DNA from: an uncultured Spirochaetales bacterium
GTDB taxonomy: Bacteria > Spirochaetota > Spirochaetia > Sphaerochaetales > Sphaerochaetaceae
Direction of reading: 5' to 3'
Assembly (NCBI GenBank): GCA_949283235.1
Contig: CASDRY010000007.1
Coordinates: 1 to 43,024 of the forward strand
Length of the DNA: 43,024 bases
Shown piece by piece: positions 6,553 through 27,561 of the stretch. Within the stretch, counting starts at the first letter, position 1. Each line of letters opens with the position of its first letter. Both the position numbers and the translations under genes were made by a program. The notes beneath the pieces are model-generated. The model saw only the letters and a list, made by a program, of their open reading frames with translations. It was not told the origin of the DNA and made no database searches.

Positions 6553-9500
6553 ATGGGTAGGAAGACGGGGCTTCTGCTTGCAAATATCTATCAAGGAGCA
6601 AGCAGGGCAATGTGGAGGTATGCTGTTGCGCTTTCTGAAGAGCATCCTGATGATTCCCTGATTATCTTCCCTGGTGGAAGGATAGGATTCCTGGGTTCTA
6701 GCGAGTACCTCAGAAACAGCATCTATGATCTTGTTGATAGCTCCTCGATTGATGGTGCCCTTATCTGGTCGTCTTCCCTCGTTGGCGCTGAGAGCGCTGA
6801 AAGTATTTCGTCCTTTGTGAGAGGTATTGCCAAACACCTTCCAGTAGTTTCTATGTGCATGACCATTCCTGGAATCACATCGGTTAACTTTGATGCATAT
6901 ACAGGAACATATAGCGCTGTGAAGCATTTCATAGAGGTGCACGGTGCAAGGAAAATAGCATTCATAAGAGGGCCTGCAAGCCATATGAGTGCGGAGGCAA
7001 GGTATAATGCTTATCTAGATGCGCTCCGAGATTCCGGAATTGAAATCAATGAGGGTCTTATTACATCTCCTCGTCCATGGGGTGAGGGGGCGGCAGCGGC
7101 AAGGGAGCTCCTGGATGAAAGAAAACTCAAAGCTGGAGATGATTTCACCGCTGTAGTTGCAGCTTCTGATCTTCTTGTTCTTGGAGCTGAACCTGTTTTC
7201 AGGGAACATGGGGTATCAATACCGGATGATATAGGAATTTCCGGTTTCAATGACAATGAGGAGAACCAGCTTCTCGATGTCGAACTTACAACTGTACGCA
7301 TGCCGATAAGAAGAATCCTGGAAACTTCATACTCCCTTCTTTCTGAAGTGGAATATGGGGAGGGGTCGAAGGATCTTTCCGTGCTTCTTCCTTCCGCATT
7401 TCTTATCAGGCGTTCTTGTGGTTGTGATGACAGCCTTGGCGGAATTGAGAAGGCAAGGGAGAGTATAAAGGATTTCGAATCACTTAAGAGTTTTCTCAAG
7501 GATAGTACAGGAGATGATGATTCTTATCGCTACCTTATTGATATACTCTCCTTCCTTTACTTCTCTGATGGTGATGATAACGCAAAAATAGCTGAAGCTG
7601 TCTCTGGTTATTTTGAAAGCAGTTCCGATACTAATCTCATCCTCGAAGCAGTGAAATGGTGTGAGGATATTTTTGGACTGAAAGAGAAAAGCTCAGGAAA
7701 AAGGGATTATCTTCTTTCCCGTATAATTCATGGTAGCAGGAAGCAGTATGCTAGGGAGCAGCAGCGGCTTGGAGAGGTTTCCAGGGTGCTCGATACATTC
7801 AAGACTGAGCTTTTAGCGGCTCGTTCATATACCTCTCTCCCTCTGATAATGCAGACAATCTTCCCATCAATAGGCATTCATGGAGCACTGCTGATGCTCT
7901 ATGATGATTTCCAGTATACGAGGATGATCGGAGGATTCTCCAAGGATAAGCTTTACTCAGAGGACATTAGATTTCCTAGGCGTCGCATCATCCCTGAAAC
8001 ACTTGATTCCTTCATGGATAAAGGAACATTCATCGTTGAGCCGCTTTTCTATGACAAGCAGGAGCTTGGTTACATTCTGATTGCTACTGCCTGGTGTGAA
8101 GGTTATGTTCTGGAGGATATAAGGGCATCCTTGTCATCAGCTATAAAGGGAATAAGTCTTACCGAGGTTGCCCAGAAAGCTGCAGAAGCCGCAGAGGAGG
8201 GGGAGAGAAGAGCAGGAGAGTTCTATGCAAGTGTATCTGAAGCTTTGCAGGGACCTCTTTCTGCGATGCATAAGATGCTCTCTTCTTCTGGGAGCTTCCT
8301 GAGAAGCAGGATGGCGGAAGAGGTAAGGAAAGCTGAACACATGCTTTCCCTTTCCCTCGCTGAATTCGGAGAGCTGGATATGGAAAAGCTCCTTGTCCCT
8401 CTTTCTCATTTCGTGTCCTCTATAAAGAATAAGCTTGGAGCTGTTGTGATCTCTCCAGATGATCTTCCTTCTCTGGAGATCGATACTGAACTCATAACTC
8501 AGGTGATTGCCCTTATTGCTGAGACTTCTCCTGTAGTGGAGATTAAGCTTGAGCCTCGCCATGTGAGATTTTTGATTAAAGGAGGAAGTAAACCTTCTTT
8601 GCAGGCCCTTCAGCTTGCAGCGAAAATCGCTGTCCTTCATTCTGGAGAACTTAAAAAAGAAGAGGATGGAGCAGTTCTGACTCTCCCTTATCCTACACTT
8701 TCGGGGCATCAGGGTTCTTCTTCTGATAATGGCCCTGTTGTCTGGCTTTCCAGCGGTGAGGGGATACCCGAAGCCCTTTCAAACCTTCAGGTAATAACAC
8801 TGAGCGAGAATGATGCCTCTTCGATATATAAAATGGATCCTCCTCCGTCTGCCATAGCCTGGAGAAAAGCAAGCAGTTCACGAAGTGGCGCAGCCTTGCT
8901 CCGCCTCCTCAGAAGCCATAGATTATCAAGGTCTCTTCCTTTCATAGCATTTGGTATTGAAGAGAAAGCAGTCTCTCTTTCCGTTGCACTCGAGTGTGAT
9001 CGTTCTGATTCTGACGATTCCGTGATTCTCTTAATGCCTCGTCTTCCTCAGCTTGAGAAAATCCTCTCCGATTTCGGGCGTGTTGAAGATGGTCTTTCAG
9101 AAGAGGAAATACTAACAGCGCTGAAGGGTATCCCACGCCTTATTGTTTTGGATAATACCGATACAGGCCTGATCTCCGCACTCCGGCATTCAAAACGTTT
9201 TTCTGCTGTTCCTGTGCTTATAGTGAAGGATAGCTTTACAGAGAGGGAGATTGATGCAATTGCAGACTCCCCGAATATTATGATAGCCAACTCCGCTGTT
9301 CTTGATTCCTCAGACTTCATTTCCCGTCTTGTCTCGATACTAGGGGGAGGGGAGCTATTACCACCTCTGACGGGAGCCCTTGTGAAGAGAGCGATAGCTT
9401 TCCTTAACAGGCATCTTTCAAAGCAGATACTCAGATGGCAGCTTGCAGAGAGCGTTAATATTAGCGAGGACTATCTGACAAGGATATTCAGGCGTGAAAT

Positions 9501-16808: not shown

Positions 16809-16844
16809 TTCTTGGTGTATGTCTATCTCGGAGTCGTAAGGCTC

Positions 16845-16868
16845 AGCGGGCTACGGCCCGCTTTGTTA
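16845..16868 (+). terminator. intrinsic terminator of the rhamnogalacturonan operon
   Basis: A perfect 7-bp GC-rich stem AGCGGGC/GCCCGCT (16845-16851 with 16856-16862) with a TACG loop, followed by a T-rich stretch. Confidence 0.85.
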
Positions 16869-16895
16869 ATTAATAGCAAACGATCTGAAATTTCA

Positions 16896-16924
16896 TTCAT
16901 AAACAGCATAAATAATGTTATTAT
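16896..16924 (+). promoter_or_regulatory. candidate promoter of the poly-G lipoprotein gene
   Basis: TTCATA (16896-16901), 17-base spacer, TATTAT (16919-16924). The predicted start near 16931 would leave a short leader with the GGAGG at 16934-16938. Confidence 0.35.
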
Positions 16925-16943
16925 TGCTTCTGTGGAGGCCAAA

Positions 16944-18772
16944 ATGAAAAGAAATAAAAGGAATTTAGGCTTGCAGATGGGGGGGGTTCTAAATCCTTAA
17001 AAGCTCTCCCTATCTTAGTTCTTGTGATACTCCTTGCATTCACAAGCTGTCAGAATAATGGATACCCAGGATATCCTTTCATCCCACCGACAACAGAAAC
17101 AAAGCTACCTCAGCTTGCTACAGAAAAAGTTGCTTCAGCTCTGGATATTGCTGGTGTAATTGAGGATTTACAGGGATCTCATGAAGGAATGAATGTTTCC
17201 TGGAAAGTTACAGATGCAGTACAGCAGATATTGGCAGTACGCTCAATGTCAGCAAACACAGAAGAAACATCAGGTACACCTGTTACAATCATTGCAACAG
17301 TAACATTCAGTGGTTACTCTGGAAATGGACTGAACAAAGCTTCTGGTATCAGTGAAATCAAGAGTGGTTCAATTGAACTGACATTTAAAGGAACTGTATC
17401 AGGTACAGATACTGTAACAGCAAATCTCAATACATTCACAGCAAAGACAACAACTCCTCTTACACTTGTACAGGAAAGAACTGGATATGTTTCAAATAAC
17501 TACACTGTAAGTGCTGAGAATATGTCTGGAGCTTCTGAAGTTTCTTTCACTTATACAGAACCAACTTCAGGTTCTTCAGAGATTGTGCCATCAAATATTA
17601 TTACTAATGAAGTCGTAATTAACTCTGGATCTTCTATCACAGTTGGATCTAATACCCCTGTTGTTGATAACACATGGAAGGGTGGAGTAGATACATCATG
17701 GTATGATGTGAATTCTTCAGCAACTGAATTTACTATTAGCACCCCTGAAGAATTTGCAGGACTTGCAAAGATTGTTAATGATGGAACTGATGATTTTGCA
17801 GGAGATACTATTATACTCGCAGCTGATATAGATCTTGGAAATATTGAATGGGAGCCTATTGGATATGGAAGAACTGATAACAAAGACCCATATTCATATA
17901 AAGACGATACCTTCAATTGCTTTGCAGGAATTTTTAATGGTGATGATCATACAATTTCAAATCTCTATATGCATAAGGATTCTGCTGCAAACACATGGGA
18001 AAGATCTTATGTTGCACTCTTTGGTTGTGTAAAAACTGGTGCTATTATCAAGAATCTTTCGATTGAAAATGTAGAAATCTACGCAAACTCATTCGTTGGA
18101 GCTTTTGTTGGATATATACCAAGTGGTTCTTCTGAAAGAGGATCTGTTACATTGGAAGGTCTTACAGTAACTGGTAATTTGACAATGGTTGGTCAGTTTA
18201 GTATTGGTGGAATACTGGGAAGAAATGAGACTGGAACTGATTTGGCTATGAGTGATTGTCATGTTTCTGTGAATACAGGAAGTTCTATTACTGGACATGC
18301 ATATGGACAGGTTTCTAATTTTGTAGGTGGAATTTCTGGCTCAAACTACAGCTCTGTCTCTAATACTATTGATAATGTTTCTGTCAAGAACCTTTCAATA
18401 GTAGGTGATACTGAAGGTGTTGGAAGTATTATGGGCCACTTCAATATAGGAACTATCTCTAATGTTACAGTTGAGAATGTTTCATTGGAGATTACAGATC
18501 CTCTTTCTAATGGAGATGCAAAATCAATAGGTGCTATTACTGGACTTGTTGGCGCAGGTTCTGGCGATACAACTAAAGAATTACTGACAATATCAGGTGA
18601 GAATAAATTCTCGAATGTTGTAATGAAATTCCCTATCTCAGGATTTACTCCATTCTGTAATGGACTTGTGGGTACTTATCGTATAGATAGTATTGAAGGA
18701 GTTGATCCTTCCACAGCTTCTGTAATTGGTGTTACAGAGTACTCTGGAATTGAATATATCTTTGCAGAATAA
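16944..18772 (+). CDS. phase-variable GLUG/beta-helix-like surface lipoprotein, out of frame (OFF) here
   Basis: The ATG at 16944 has GGAGG (16934-16938) at ideal spacing but reads only 18 codons to a TAA at 16998-17000, because the G8 run at 16979-16986 is one base short. With nine (or six) Gs the same ATG reads 609 residues: a basic N-terminus, hydrophobic core ALPILVLVILLAF and lipobox FTSC (Cys36), then a Pro-rich linker, a beta-rich domain (about 60-240) and GLUG-like repeats (FAGIFNGDDHTISNLYM, VALFGCVKTGAIIKNLSIEN). The long frame as it stands opens only at a GTG at 17024 with no ribosome-binding site, which would lose most of the signal peptide. Ser/Thr/Asn-rich composition fits an exposed protein. 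A sequencing error in the run is the alternative; function is unknown. Confidence 0.8.
16979..16986 (+). repeat. G8 homopolymer, translational phase switch
   Basis: Eight consecutive Gs in codons 12-15 of the lipoprotein gene. A change of +1 or -2 restores the frame between the SD-bearing ATG and the lipoprotein body. Confidence 0.9.
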
Positions 18773-18787
18773 AACGACATCCGGATT

Positions 18788-18824
18788 TTATGGGGAGTTG
18801 GTTAGGGCTCCCCATAATTTTGTT
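18788..18824 (+). terminator. intrinsic terminator of the lipoprotein gene
   Basis: A perfect 10-bp stem TTATGGGGAG/CTCCCCATAA (18788-18797 with 18808-18817), 10-nt loop, then TTTTGTT. Confidence 0.85.
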
Positions 18825-18831
18825 CATAATA

Positions 18832-18910
18832 TCAAGAAAAGTGTTGAGTTTGGCTGAAAGTTCATCAAGAAAAGTGTGATAATACTGTTGAAGATCGTCA
18901 AGAAAAGTGT
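18832..18910 (+). repeat. three 13-bp direct repeats at exact 33-bp spacing
   Basis: TCAAGAAAAGTGT occurs identically at 18832-18844, 18865-18877 and 18898-18910, with unrelated DNA between. The spacing is about three helical turns, so all copies face the same side of the DNA. The last copy runs into the candidate -10 region of the ATPase gene at 18922. The array looks like a cooperative operator. Confidence 0.9.
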
Positions 18911-18915
18911 AAAGT
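18888..18915 (+). promoter_or_regulatory. candidate promoter of the DUF4143 ATPase gene
   Basis: TTGAAG (18888-18893), 16-base spacer, TAAAGT (18910-18915). The third 13-bp repeat lies in the spacer. The predicted start coincides with the ATG at 18922, implying a leaderless message. Confidence 0.3.
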
Positions 18916-18921
18916 CTAGAT

Positions 18922-20229
18922 ATGGAACGATTCTTGTATCAGGATTTGAAAGCATGGAAGACTAAGAAAGATAGAAAGCCTCTTGTCCTTGAAGGTGCAA
19001 GGCAGACTGGAAAAACATGGCTTCTGAAAGAGTTTGGCAGAAGAGAATATACCTCCCTTGCATATATCAACTGTGATAACAATCCGCAGATGAATATCCT
19101 GTTTTCAGATTTCGATACAAAAAGGTTGCTCAGAGGCTTTTCTGCTATTACAGGTGTTGCAATCAAACCAGAAGAAACTCTTATCGTTCTTGATGAGATA
19201 CAGGAAATTCCTCTGGCGCTTACTTCTTTGAAATACTTTCAGGAAGAAGCTCCTGAATATCATATTGCTGTTGCAGGTTCTTTCCTTGGCCTTCTTATGC
19301 ATGAAGGTTCTGGTTTTCCTGTCGGGAAGACAGACTCCCTGACATTGTATCCTGTTTCATTTTCTGAATTCCTTTTAGCAAATGGTAAGGAAGTTATCCT
19401 TAAGGCAGCAAGAGAAGGGCGTTTTGAGGAATTGAATGTTGTTCATTCGCAACTTACCGAACTTCTTAGACAGTATTATTTCACTGGAGGATTACCAGAG
19501 GTCGTGGATTTGTATCTTAGTACTCAGGATCTTAATGCTGTCAGAAAACTGCAGAAAGAACTGATTAAAGATTACGAAAAAGACTTTTCAAAACATGTCC
19601 CTGAGAAGGATATCGGTAGAGTTATTGCTGTCTGGAATAGTATTCCAAGTCAGCTTGCGAAGGAGAATAAAAAGTTTATCTATGGTGCAATAAGAAAAGG
19701 GGCAAGAGCAAAGGACTATGAAATTGCTATCGAATGGCTTCGGAAAATGGGACTTGTATACAGAGTTTCCAGGGTAAAGAGTCTAGAGAAGCCTCTGAAG
19801 TTTTATGAGGATCTCGATTGCTTTAAGCTCTTCATGCTTGATATCGGAATACTGGGAGCTATGGTTGATGCAAGGCCGGATGAAATTCTTATAGGGGATA
19901 ATGTCTTTTCTACATATAAGGGAAGTTTTACAGAGTTGTATGTGGCAGGACAATTCTTCTCTGTATGCAATGATAAAAAGCTATATTATTACACCAATGA
20001 TGATTCGACATTAGAACTTGATTTCATAATTGAGAGTAATGATGTTTATCCGATAGAAGTTAAAGCTGAAGTTAACCCCAGGTCTAAAAGCCTTTCTACT
20101 GTTTTAAAGAAACATGAAGGTATGAAAGGAATTAGATTCTCAATGATGCCTTACAAAGAGCAAGAGAGAATAGTGAATGTTCCTTTACCTTTAGCAGGAG
20201 AGTACATGAGAACTTTGTTGCTTTTGTAG
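18922..20229 (+). CDS. AAA_14/DUF4143 ATPase
   Basis: 435 residues. Walker A is GARQTGKT (residues about 25-32) and Walker B LIVLDEIQEIP, followed by AVAGSFLGLL and the SLTLYPVSFSEFLLANG segment characteristic of AAA_14. The DUF4143 half contains TGGLPEVVDLYL and, near the C-terminus, LELDFIIESNDVYPIEVKA, which keeps the D and E-V-K elements of a PD-(D/E)XK fold. These proteins are numerous in anaerobes but their role is unknown. No Shine-Dalgarno precedes the ATG. The gene is monocistronic and preceded by the 33-bp-spaced repeats. It is similar in design to the 9750-11123 ATPase but belongs to a different subfamily. Confidence 0.9.
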   Translation: MERFLYQDLKAWKTKKDRKPLVLEGARQTGKTWLLKEFGRREYTSLAYINCDNNPQMNILFSDFDTKRLLRGFSAITGVAIKPEETLIVLDEIQEIPLALTSLKYFQEEAPEYHIAVAGSFLGLLMHEGSGFPVGKTDSLTLYPVSFSEFLLANGKEVILKAAREGRFEELNVVHSQLTELLRQYYFTGGLPEVVDLYLSTQDLNAVRKLQKELIKDYEKDFSKHVPEKDIGRVIAVWNSIPSQLAKENKKFIYGAIRKGARAKDYEIAIEWLRKMGLVYRVSRVKSLEKPLKFYEDLDCFKLFMLDIGILGAMVDARPDEILIGDNVFSTYKGSFTELYVAGQFFSVCNDKKLYYYTNDDSTLELDFIIESNDVYPIEVKAEVNPRSKSLSTVLKKHEGMKGIRFSMMPYKEQERIVNVPLPLAGEYMRTLLLL

Positions 20230-20348
20230 TATCCTTTTCCACACTTTGAATTATCTGTTGAAAAGGACTTTACAATATCGTTATTGTAATTTTCTATACA
20301 ATATATATTTATATTGATTAAATAGAATTAACTTCCTGCATTCTCTGT

Positions 20349-20377
20349 TTGACAGCACAGTAGACTACAAGTAAAAT
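20349..20377 (+). promoter_or_regulatory. sigma-70-type promoter of the nucleoside importer operon
   Basis: TTGACA (20349-20354), a 17-base spacer and TAAAAT (20372-20377), eleven of twelve consensus positions. The predicted start near 20384 leaves a leader of about 25 bases with AAGGAG before the ATG. Confidence 0.7.
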
Positions 20378-20408
20378 GACGCTATAACATCCTAATAAGG
20401 AGAAACCA

Positions 20409-26136: not shown

Positions 26137-26164
26137 TTGACAAACTACTGGGGGGGGGTATCTT
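26137..26164 (+). promoter_or_regulatory. promoter with a poly-G spacer (transcriptional phase switch)
   Basis: Perfect TTGACA (26137-26142) and TATCTT (26159-26164) separated by 16 bases, nine of which are the G run at 26150-26158. Gain of one G would give the optimal 17-base spacing; loss would weaken it. The predicted start is about 26171, at the beginning of the GGAGG site. Confidence 0.7.
26150..26158 (+). repeat. G9 homopolymer in promoter spacer
   Basis: Nine consecutive Gs between the -35 and -10 boxes of the lipoprotein gene at 26182. Confidence 0.92.
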
Positions 26165-26181: not shown

Positions 26182-27561
26182 ATGAAGAAAACGTTCGTCA
26201 TAGCATTATCGATTCTGATGCTATTCTCATTTGTTGCATGTAACAATAATTCTCTTCCAGGAGGAATGATACCGCCTGGAGTTATCGGACCAACACCGGG
26301 TGGTGGAGATTCTTCAACCGAGAGTGTAAATACAGCTCAGAACCTTTTATCTGCTCTGGCTGATACTTCTGTTAAAACAATAAATATGACAGGGGATATA
26401 GATATTCCAGCAGATGGTCTTGCAATAGATAACAATAAGTCTTTCACTGGTGCTGGAAGTCTTGTTTTCAATTCTAATTCTGGAACAATTGTTATTGAAA
26501 ATGGTTCTGATGTTTCAGGTTTGAAGCTTGAAATTGGAAGTGATAATGTATCTCTTCTTTCAAGTACAGAGGAAAGTGAGAATATCCTAAAAGTAATTTC
26601 AGTAACAGGAAACAATACAACAATGTCAAATGTTGTAATTAATGTAGGTGCTGTTTCGGGGGCAAAATACAACATAATAACAGTAGAGCCAACTGCAAGT
26701 AATTTCACGCTTACAAATAGCACTATTACTGGAGATATCAAGGATTTTACATCAATTAATGACTATACAGCCAATATTGCAGTAGCAGTTAGCAGCGGAT
26801 CAAGTGCAACTATTTCTAACAGTACAATTACTGGTTGCTATACTCCTGTTTATGCATCAACAAGCAATATTGTTATTGATGGTTTGCATTTTGAGTCGGG
26901 AATTCAGCTTGATACAGTCAGTGCGTCAACTGTTGTAAAGAATTCTTTTGATGTAGAAGGTTGTTATAGAGCCAAGGTTGATATCATGGCAGGCGCTGGT
27001 GAGGCGGAATTAGTAAAATCCAAAATTATCGAGTTTGTTAAGAATAACAACAATGTTTATATAACATCAGAGGGAAAGGAGCCTAACGATATCCTTACTG
27101 CATATCTTTTAAATGCCAGCTTTGGATCATTGCGCCTTTTCAATAATCTCTTTGGTGTTGCCAAAGGAGATAATGCCGCAGGATTTACAACAGTTACTCC
27201 GAAGGTTGAAAGTACACAGATTGTGTTCGAAGGTATTCAGCTTGATGGTTATGGATACGGAAAAGAAGGTATCACAGCTTCTGGAATAGTTGATGTTACA
27301 TTGACAGGTGAAATGAATACATCAACCTTTGTTGTAAATAGTGTAACAATATCTTCTGATGATCTGACAGTTGAAGGAGCTTCTCCATCTATTGTATATC
27401 TGAGTGGATTTGATGTAACGACAGGTCTTAGCAGTAATTTGTCCATTCCAGTAGAAGGAAATGAGCTTAAATATACATCAGATTGCTATGATAACAATAA
27501 ACTCACAGCCCCAACTTCAGTTCCTACAGGAACTACAGTAAATGGCTGGATTGTAAAGTAA
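26182..27561 (+). CDS. beta-helix-like surface lipoprotein under a poly-G promoter
   Basis: 459 residues. The signal peptide ends in the lipobox-like FVAC (Cys20), followed by Asn residues and a Gly/Pro-rich linker (residues 21-45), as in the 16944 lipoprotein. The body is Ser/Thr/Asn/Val-rich with short repeating beta-rungs (IVIENGSDVSGLKLEIGSD, TISNSTITGCY, NIVIDGLHFESGI) resembling a right-handed parallel beta-helix of the pectate-lyase type, without catalytic residues I can identify. GGAGG (26171-26175) lies 6 bases before the ATG. Function unknown; an exposed adhesin or binding protein is plausible (inference). Confidence 0.85.
   Translation: MKKTFVIALSILMLFSFVACNNNSLPGGMIPPGVIGPTPGGGDSSTESVNTAQNLLSALADTSVKTINMTGDIDIPADGLAIDNNKSFTGAGSLVFNSNSGTIVIENGSDVSGLKLEIGSDNVSLLSSTEESENILKVISVTGNNTTMSNVVINVGAVSGAKYNIITVEPTASNFTLTNSTITGDIKDFTSINDYTANIAVAVSSGSSATISNSTITGCYTPVYASTSNIVIDGLHFESGIQLDTVSASTVVKNSFDVEGCYRAKVDIMAGAGEAELVKSKIIEFVKNNNNVYITSEGKEPNDILTAYLLNASFGSLRLFNNLFGVAKGDNAAGFTTVTPKVESTQIVFEGIQLDGYGYGKEGITASGIVDVTLTGEMNTSTFVVNSVTISSDDLTVEGASPSIVYLSGFDVTTGLSSNLSIPVEGNELKYTSDCYDNNKLTAPTSVPTGTTVNGWIVK

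Follow-up and report, generated by a model that had tools for sequence, protein, structure and literature searches.

How is a lipoprotein gene expressed when its long open frame has no proper start? This question is raised by a gene on contig CASDRY010000007.1 (contig C7) of an uncultured Spirochaetales bacterium (assembly GCA_949283235.1; 2.21 Mb, 147 contigs, 85% complete), which is the 43,024-nucleotide stretch referred to here as the window; positions in the window are given on the + strand. The frame of the lipoprotein body is open from 16958 to its stop codon at 18770–18772, and the sole ATG, GTG or TTG that it contains upstream of the lipobox is GTG 17024, which no Shine-Dalgarno sequence precedes. 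We propose that the run of eight Gs at 16979–16986 is a contingency switch, i.e. that replication slippage alters its length and thereby turns translation of the lipoprotein on and off, a reading to which we assign a probability of roughly 0.87.

Two frames that meet at a run of eight Gs

The start of the gene is apparent from the window sequence: GGAGGCCAAAATG (16934–16946) comprises a ribosome-binding site, GGAGG (16934–16938), followed by ATG 16944. As assembled, reading from this ATG gives a frame of 18 codons (16944–17000) that ends at TAA 16998–17000. The lipoprotein body lies in register 2 with respect to ATG 16944, hence start and body are in different frames, and the overlap of the two frames surrounds the G-run. 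The body frame encodes a hydrophobic signal-peptide core and the lipobox FTSC (16988–17050, with the cysteine codon at 17048–17050), so that the product is a predicted lipoprotein with a charged start, a hydrophobic core and a lipobox containing a cysteine, all recognized by motif only. Counted from GTG 17024, the intact body comprises 582 codons (17024–18772) with no further stop or frame shift. The locus thus has the layout of a translational poly-G locus, with a homopolymer in the 5′ part of the coding region whose length sets whether start and body are in the same frame. The only other G or C run of at least 7 bases in the window is a G9 at 26150–26158. The first-pass annotation of this DNA had placed the run, the ribosome-binding site and the ATG at these positions; it had also described the sole start with a ribosome-binding site as out of frame with the body and meeting it at the G-run, the long frame as lacking a proper start, and the signal peptide as ending in FTSC, and our reading of the frames and motifs agrees with each of these statements.

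In the proposed switch, a slipped-strand change in length would decide whether the ribosome is in the lipoprotein frame by the time it reaches the hydrophobic core; cells in the out-of-frame state would yield only an 18-residue peptide. We infer that the length changes in this population and that in-frame cells would make and export the lipoprotein, which would be displayed at the surface.

Run length and frame in orthologues and sister genes

The purine phosphorylase encoded in the window is at best 91% identical to that of a Spirochaetaceae metagenome-assembled genome (MAG), 87% identical to those of two Candidatus Ornithospirochaeta MAGs and 71% identical to that of a third Ornithospirochaeta MAG, stercorigallinarum; on account of these identities, we place the genome in or beside Candidatus Ornithospirochaeta. 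The relatives come from the chicken gut (PMC8035907), and a gut habitat is likely for this bacterium too, judging by its relatives. For comparison, we used 48 genomes of the genus, one per species.

A homologue of the lipoprotein was found in 14 of the 35 genus relatives searched. Among 45 loci searched around the purine phosphorylase gene, the only one to match the lipoprotein body was L094 (CALXLD010000022.1), from a sister MAG, where the gene order (GH88, lipoprotein, BMP-type protein) is syntenic with that of the window. The L094 lipoprotein is 41% identical to that of the window and has the same GGAGGCCAAAATGAA, covering the ribosome-binding site and the ATG; it also contains a G8 (L094:2790–2797), there within a single continuous frame of 623 codons. 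Two metagenome proteins, P0003 and P0004, have a similar N-terminus in frame, and P0005 is the L094 protein itself. These orthologues bear on the idea that translation begins at GTG 17024 and that the G-run has no role. That codon is the sole in-frame start upstream of the lipobox, and the gene call of another relative, P0001, begins at the same place. However, a protein initiated there, without a Shine-Dalgarno sequence, would have no charged n-region and only eight residues before the cysteine, and P0003–P0005 all begin at an ATG upstream of the run. We regard initiation at the GTG as extremely improbable.

The bacterium itself contains a paralogue of the gene (L061/L049; G000:C59, near 7692–8303, minus strand), 30% identical over part of its length, with a G6 at the equivalent place and likewise out of frame. 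None of 24 homologue matches contains an internal stop: the bodies stay open even when out of frame.

Genus-wide, the pattern SD-ATG-N10-40-G7 (SD, Shine-Dalgarno) occurs, by hand count, at 41 distinct sites spread over 23 of the 48 genomes. The reversed pattern gave 53 raw overlapping matches, which is not a usable null, and its 3 sites in the fetched loci are all of the promoter type described below; a version with C7 in place of G7 was used as control instead and gave 12 sites in 11/48 genomes. Frames were compared in 35 distinct predicted lipoprotein genes with G6–G11 before or in the signal-peptide core, the run being followed by a lipobox frame at 36 sites, of which L034 (promoter type, with an interrupted run) was set aside; L079 and L091 were likewise removed as promoter-type. 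Lipoboxes were called with a permissive regular expression rather than a trained predictor. Thirty-two of the 35 are among the 41 pattern sites, and L001, L047 and L049 were contributed by other searches. The pattern sites left out are L217, collapsed because it has the same flanks and run length as L046 (both in frame), L215 (cut by a contig end), L174, L175, L204 and L212 (no lipobox), L187 and L216 (no 30-codon open frame), and G069:C113 (promoter type, not fetched).

At 12 of the 35 sites, start and body share a frame; the body is shifted by one at 10 and by two at 13, a spread indistinguishable from an even one (chi-square p = 0.82). Such a spread points to slippage over many generations, and it speaks for a switching role, since a G-run without one would stay in frame. 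It also bears on programmed ribosomal frameshifting or transcriptional slippage at the G-run, which would provide lipoprotein constantly and at a set ratio from unchanged DNA. G-runs of this length are known to be slippery, and some leakage is likely even with a DNA switch, but a fixed programmed site needs a single offset, whereas the genus has all three, and copies with the same flanks vary in run length. Programmed frameshifting was rejected on the basis of the frame spread and seems to us improbable.

The variation in length is most direct in sister genes. Of four same-flank copies in genome G034, the one in frame has 10 Gs and those out of frame have 11, 9 and 9, a further copy, L210, being cut by a contig end; similarly, genes with near-identical 5′ ends have G10 out of frame in G016 and G9 in frame in G002. 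The slipped-strand phase variation invoked in the first-pass annotation is therefore supported by same-flank sister genes of different run length, by copies in and out of frame and by the in-frame syntenic orthologue, and lengths compared among relatives are not fixed. We also observed a C12 (G012:C10:6036–6081) and a C8 (G005:C164:48–87) following gene starts that are almost identical in the two genomes; these are probably the same kind of switch built with C.

A decaying pseudogene, or a one-base assembly error in run length, would produce the same out-of-frame start. Homopolymers are error-prone, the window comes from a single metagenome-like assembly, and some relatives have no such gene, their GH88–BMP gap being ~180–290 bases (L096–L099). 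Against this, the 582-codon body contains no other stop or shift, the paralogue on C59 is out of frame too, at G6, and an assembly error would need to recur at 23 of the 35 sites, in independent assemblies and each time at this place. We consider decay or error unlikely, though marginally less so than programmed frameshifting.

Several observations weigh against a switch at 16979–16986. The length of this run is known from assembled sequence, and switching at this exact locus is inferred; the search gave no second copy of the window gene whose flanks are readable, and, with one genome per species compared, no change of length within a species was seen. P0001, the closest relative, with 96% identity to the window body, starts only downstream of the run: either the gene is out of frame there or its contig is cut, and there is no in-frame copy of this exact gene among the relatives searched. 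No G or C run can be assigned near the start in 10 of 24 homologous loci, at least 3 of which have their start outside the locus. Independence among the 35 sites is incomplete, as five are G034 paralogues. The ratio of nonsynonymous to synonymous substitution rates (dN/dS) is 0.45 and 0.58 for two pairs with one copy out of frame and 0.18 for one pair with both in frame: all values are below 1, yet they are higher with an out-of-frame copy, and three pairs are too few to settle selection. Finally, loss of mismatch repair as a cause of slippage was rejected. MutS1 scores above the cut-off in 46/48 genomes of the genus and MutL in 48/48, hence slippage is not raised by repair loss; with both proteins present, slippage rates need not be extreme.

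Long G-runs in the genome, the genus and the class

The window run belongs to a genome-wide set, most members of which lie in promoter spacers, a feature that the first-pass annotation had missed. A hand count of the 41 overlapping matches gave 23 genomic runs of 8 or more Gs, where 17 would be expected in an independent, identically distributed (i.i.d.) genome of equal size; a G8 alone is thus not rare. It is the position of the runs, not their number, that exceeds chance: on manual reading, 18 of the 23 mark the 5′ end of a predicted lipoprotein gene, for which the binomial probability is 3e-15 if 9% of the sequence is assumed to be gene start. Fifteen of these 18 directly precede a TANNNT box of the lipoprotein gene, with TTGAC upstream in all except L029 (14/15). 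The other three are in lipoprotein coding starts: the window G8, L001, which is out of frame, and L014, which is in frame and immediately follows the lipobox. The remaining five long G-runs lie elsewhere (L015, L021, L024, L030 and L056), and L024 is the opposite strand of a C9 located just behind the lipobox of another lipoprotein, in frame.

One promoter-type switch candidate lies in the window itself. At 26137–26164, a pattern match gives TTGACA, a 16-base spacer holding the G9 (26150–26158) and TATCTT, i.e. a predicted promoter with a run between −35 and −10 and a spacing near 17; the lipoprotein gene behind it (26182–27561) has a Pfam Pectate_lyase_5 match, an adhesive domain. At such loci, the length of the G-run would set the −35/−10 spacing and so tune transcription. 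With the genome-wide set as a whole, each cell would display a random subset of the lipoproteins concerned.

Across the genus, TTGAC-N7-12-G7-TA has 100 matches (summed) in 34/48 genomes, compared with 1 for the reversed pattern. Of 52 sites with TTGAC close upstream, 45 have a lipobox frame behind the run, 50 a TANNNT directly after it and 49 a spacer of 16–19, figures that are partly by construction because some loci were preselected for a short spacer (18 or less) and for TA after the run. Among the 20 sites not preselected, 19 have TANNNT, a spacer of 16–20 and a lipobox frame, the exception being L128, with an 8-base spacer. In addition, L042 (G025:C22) has TTGACA and TAGGCT separated by a spacer with a C8, upstream of the gene for a homologue of the window lipoprotein, a promoter-spacer arrangement with C.

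The same arrangement extends beyond the genus. Within the class, 58 of 297 genomes, representing 24 of 112 genera, contain TTGAC-N6-13-G7-TANNNT (reversed pattern, 4 matches, summed), which is frequent in one family of Treponema-like genomes. Of 15 promoter-type sites that we read manually in the latter, 8 precede a lipoprotein-like N-terminus (L257, L259, L261–L264, L267 and L268), 4 other frames and 3 none. In the class-wide search with the coding pattern, the reversed control was as large as the signal; loci were therefore read only, and no count is used. Eight of nine coding-type sites read in Treponema-like genomes have a lipoprotein-like body, one of these in frame. In a single Treponema-like genome, G208 (one 2.8-Mb contig), five lipoprotein genes (L246 and L252–L255) share a similar leader; their runs ahead of the signal-peptide core are G8, G8, G8, G8 and G11, and as assembled all five genes are out of frame.

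These data incline us, with some reserve, towards a broader proposal: that Ornithospirochaeta-type spirochaetes have a combinatorial lipoprotein coat, in which most long G-runs would be dedicated lipoprotein switches, placed either in promoter spacers, where they would grade transcription, or ahead of the signal-peptide core, where translation would be all-or-none, and that the same placements in Treponema-like genomes reflect a class-wide strategy.

The locus, its protein and known switches

Upstream of the gene, a consensus scan detected a terminator-like hairpin 3′ of the GH88 gene (16845–16862; 2 such sites in the region, 0.3 expected) and a weak promoter-like site, TTCATA-17-TATTAT, with no G-run (16896–16924; 1 found, 0.5 expected). 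The lipoprotein gene and a gene for an AAA/DUF4143 ATPase (18922–20229) lie between the GH88 and BMP-type genes (16809–20408); this gap holds the lipoprotein gene and a different 163-codon gene in L094, and is merely the short stretch mentioned above in L096–L099. Judging from these gene orders, the GH88–BMP interval is a variable spot.

The lipoprotein body has no match in Pfam, Glug (PF07581) included, and none in a PDB sequence search; a GLUG motif is matched in 6 of 12 aligned sequences (E up to 0.01). The structure model is beta-rich (mean predicted local distance difference test score, pLDDT, 70) and confident mainly over residues 221–550. Fold matches in the PDB are weak (best E 4e-3) and mostly beta-helical, comprising IgA1 protease, phage tailspikes, and polysaccharide lyases and hydrolases. 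From this model, the body is probably a beta-helical, in any case beta-rich, domain; a binding role would be a guess.

In Neisseria opa genes, a pentamer repeat within the signal-peptide codons switches an outer-membrane barrel by frame. The window locus is alike in having its repeat in signal-peptide codons and differs in that the repeat is a G-run and the products are lipoproteins. Poly-G phase variation as such is well established (PMC11868660, PMC5953494), and G and C runs have been counted in treponemes (PMC8049484). Meningococcus, gonococcus and N. lactamica have 15–19 poly-G tracts per genome, with a modal length of 9 or 10 (PMC5953494); porA and opc are poly-G/C contingency loci, and porA is controlled by spacing, like tp0126 of T. 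pallidum (PMC7864442). The runs of Neisseria poly-G loci (porA, opc, lgtA and others) lie in promoters or coding frames, as here, but serve mixed functions, whereas 18 of the 23 long G-runs here are on one gene class. In T. pallidum, the poly-G loci tp0126, tprE/G/J and tprL are outer-membrane-protein genes with G-runs of ~7–11, and in tp0126 the run occupies the −35/−10 spacer, whose optimum is 17 bases (PMC7864442). T. pallidum is likewise a spirochaete, and its tp0126 spacer placement is that of our promoter-type loci; it differs in that its proteins are OmpW- or Tpr-type, in contrast to the many unrelated lipoproteins here, and in that the window run is in a coding start. A literature search on Sphaerochaeta and phase variation returned nothing, titles and the abstract text shown for papers on Ornithospirochaeta mention no poly-G phase variation, and among the papers listed on related subjects (at most 15 per search) none is, by title or shown abstract, about poly-G in spirochaete lipoprotein signal peptides, in a search that reached few subscription papers. 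The mechanism is known; what appears to be new is the lineage, the scale and the fact that a single gene class has runs in both placements.

For annotators, such genes are a warning, as they appear truncated or start-less in assemblies. Phase variation has mostly been studied in pathogens; here, a whole uncultured spirochaete genus appears to hold a large set of lipoprotein switches. Switch states could be read from existing metagenome reads, so that surface diversification of gut spirochaetes would be testable without culture, and, if the combinatorial proposal is true, one clone could display thousands of surface states.
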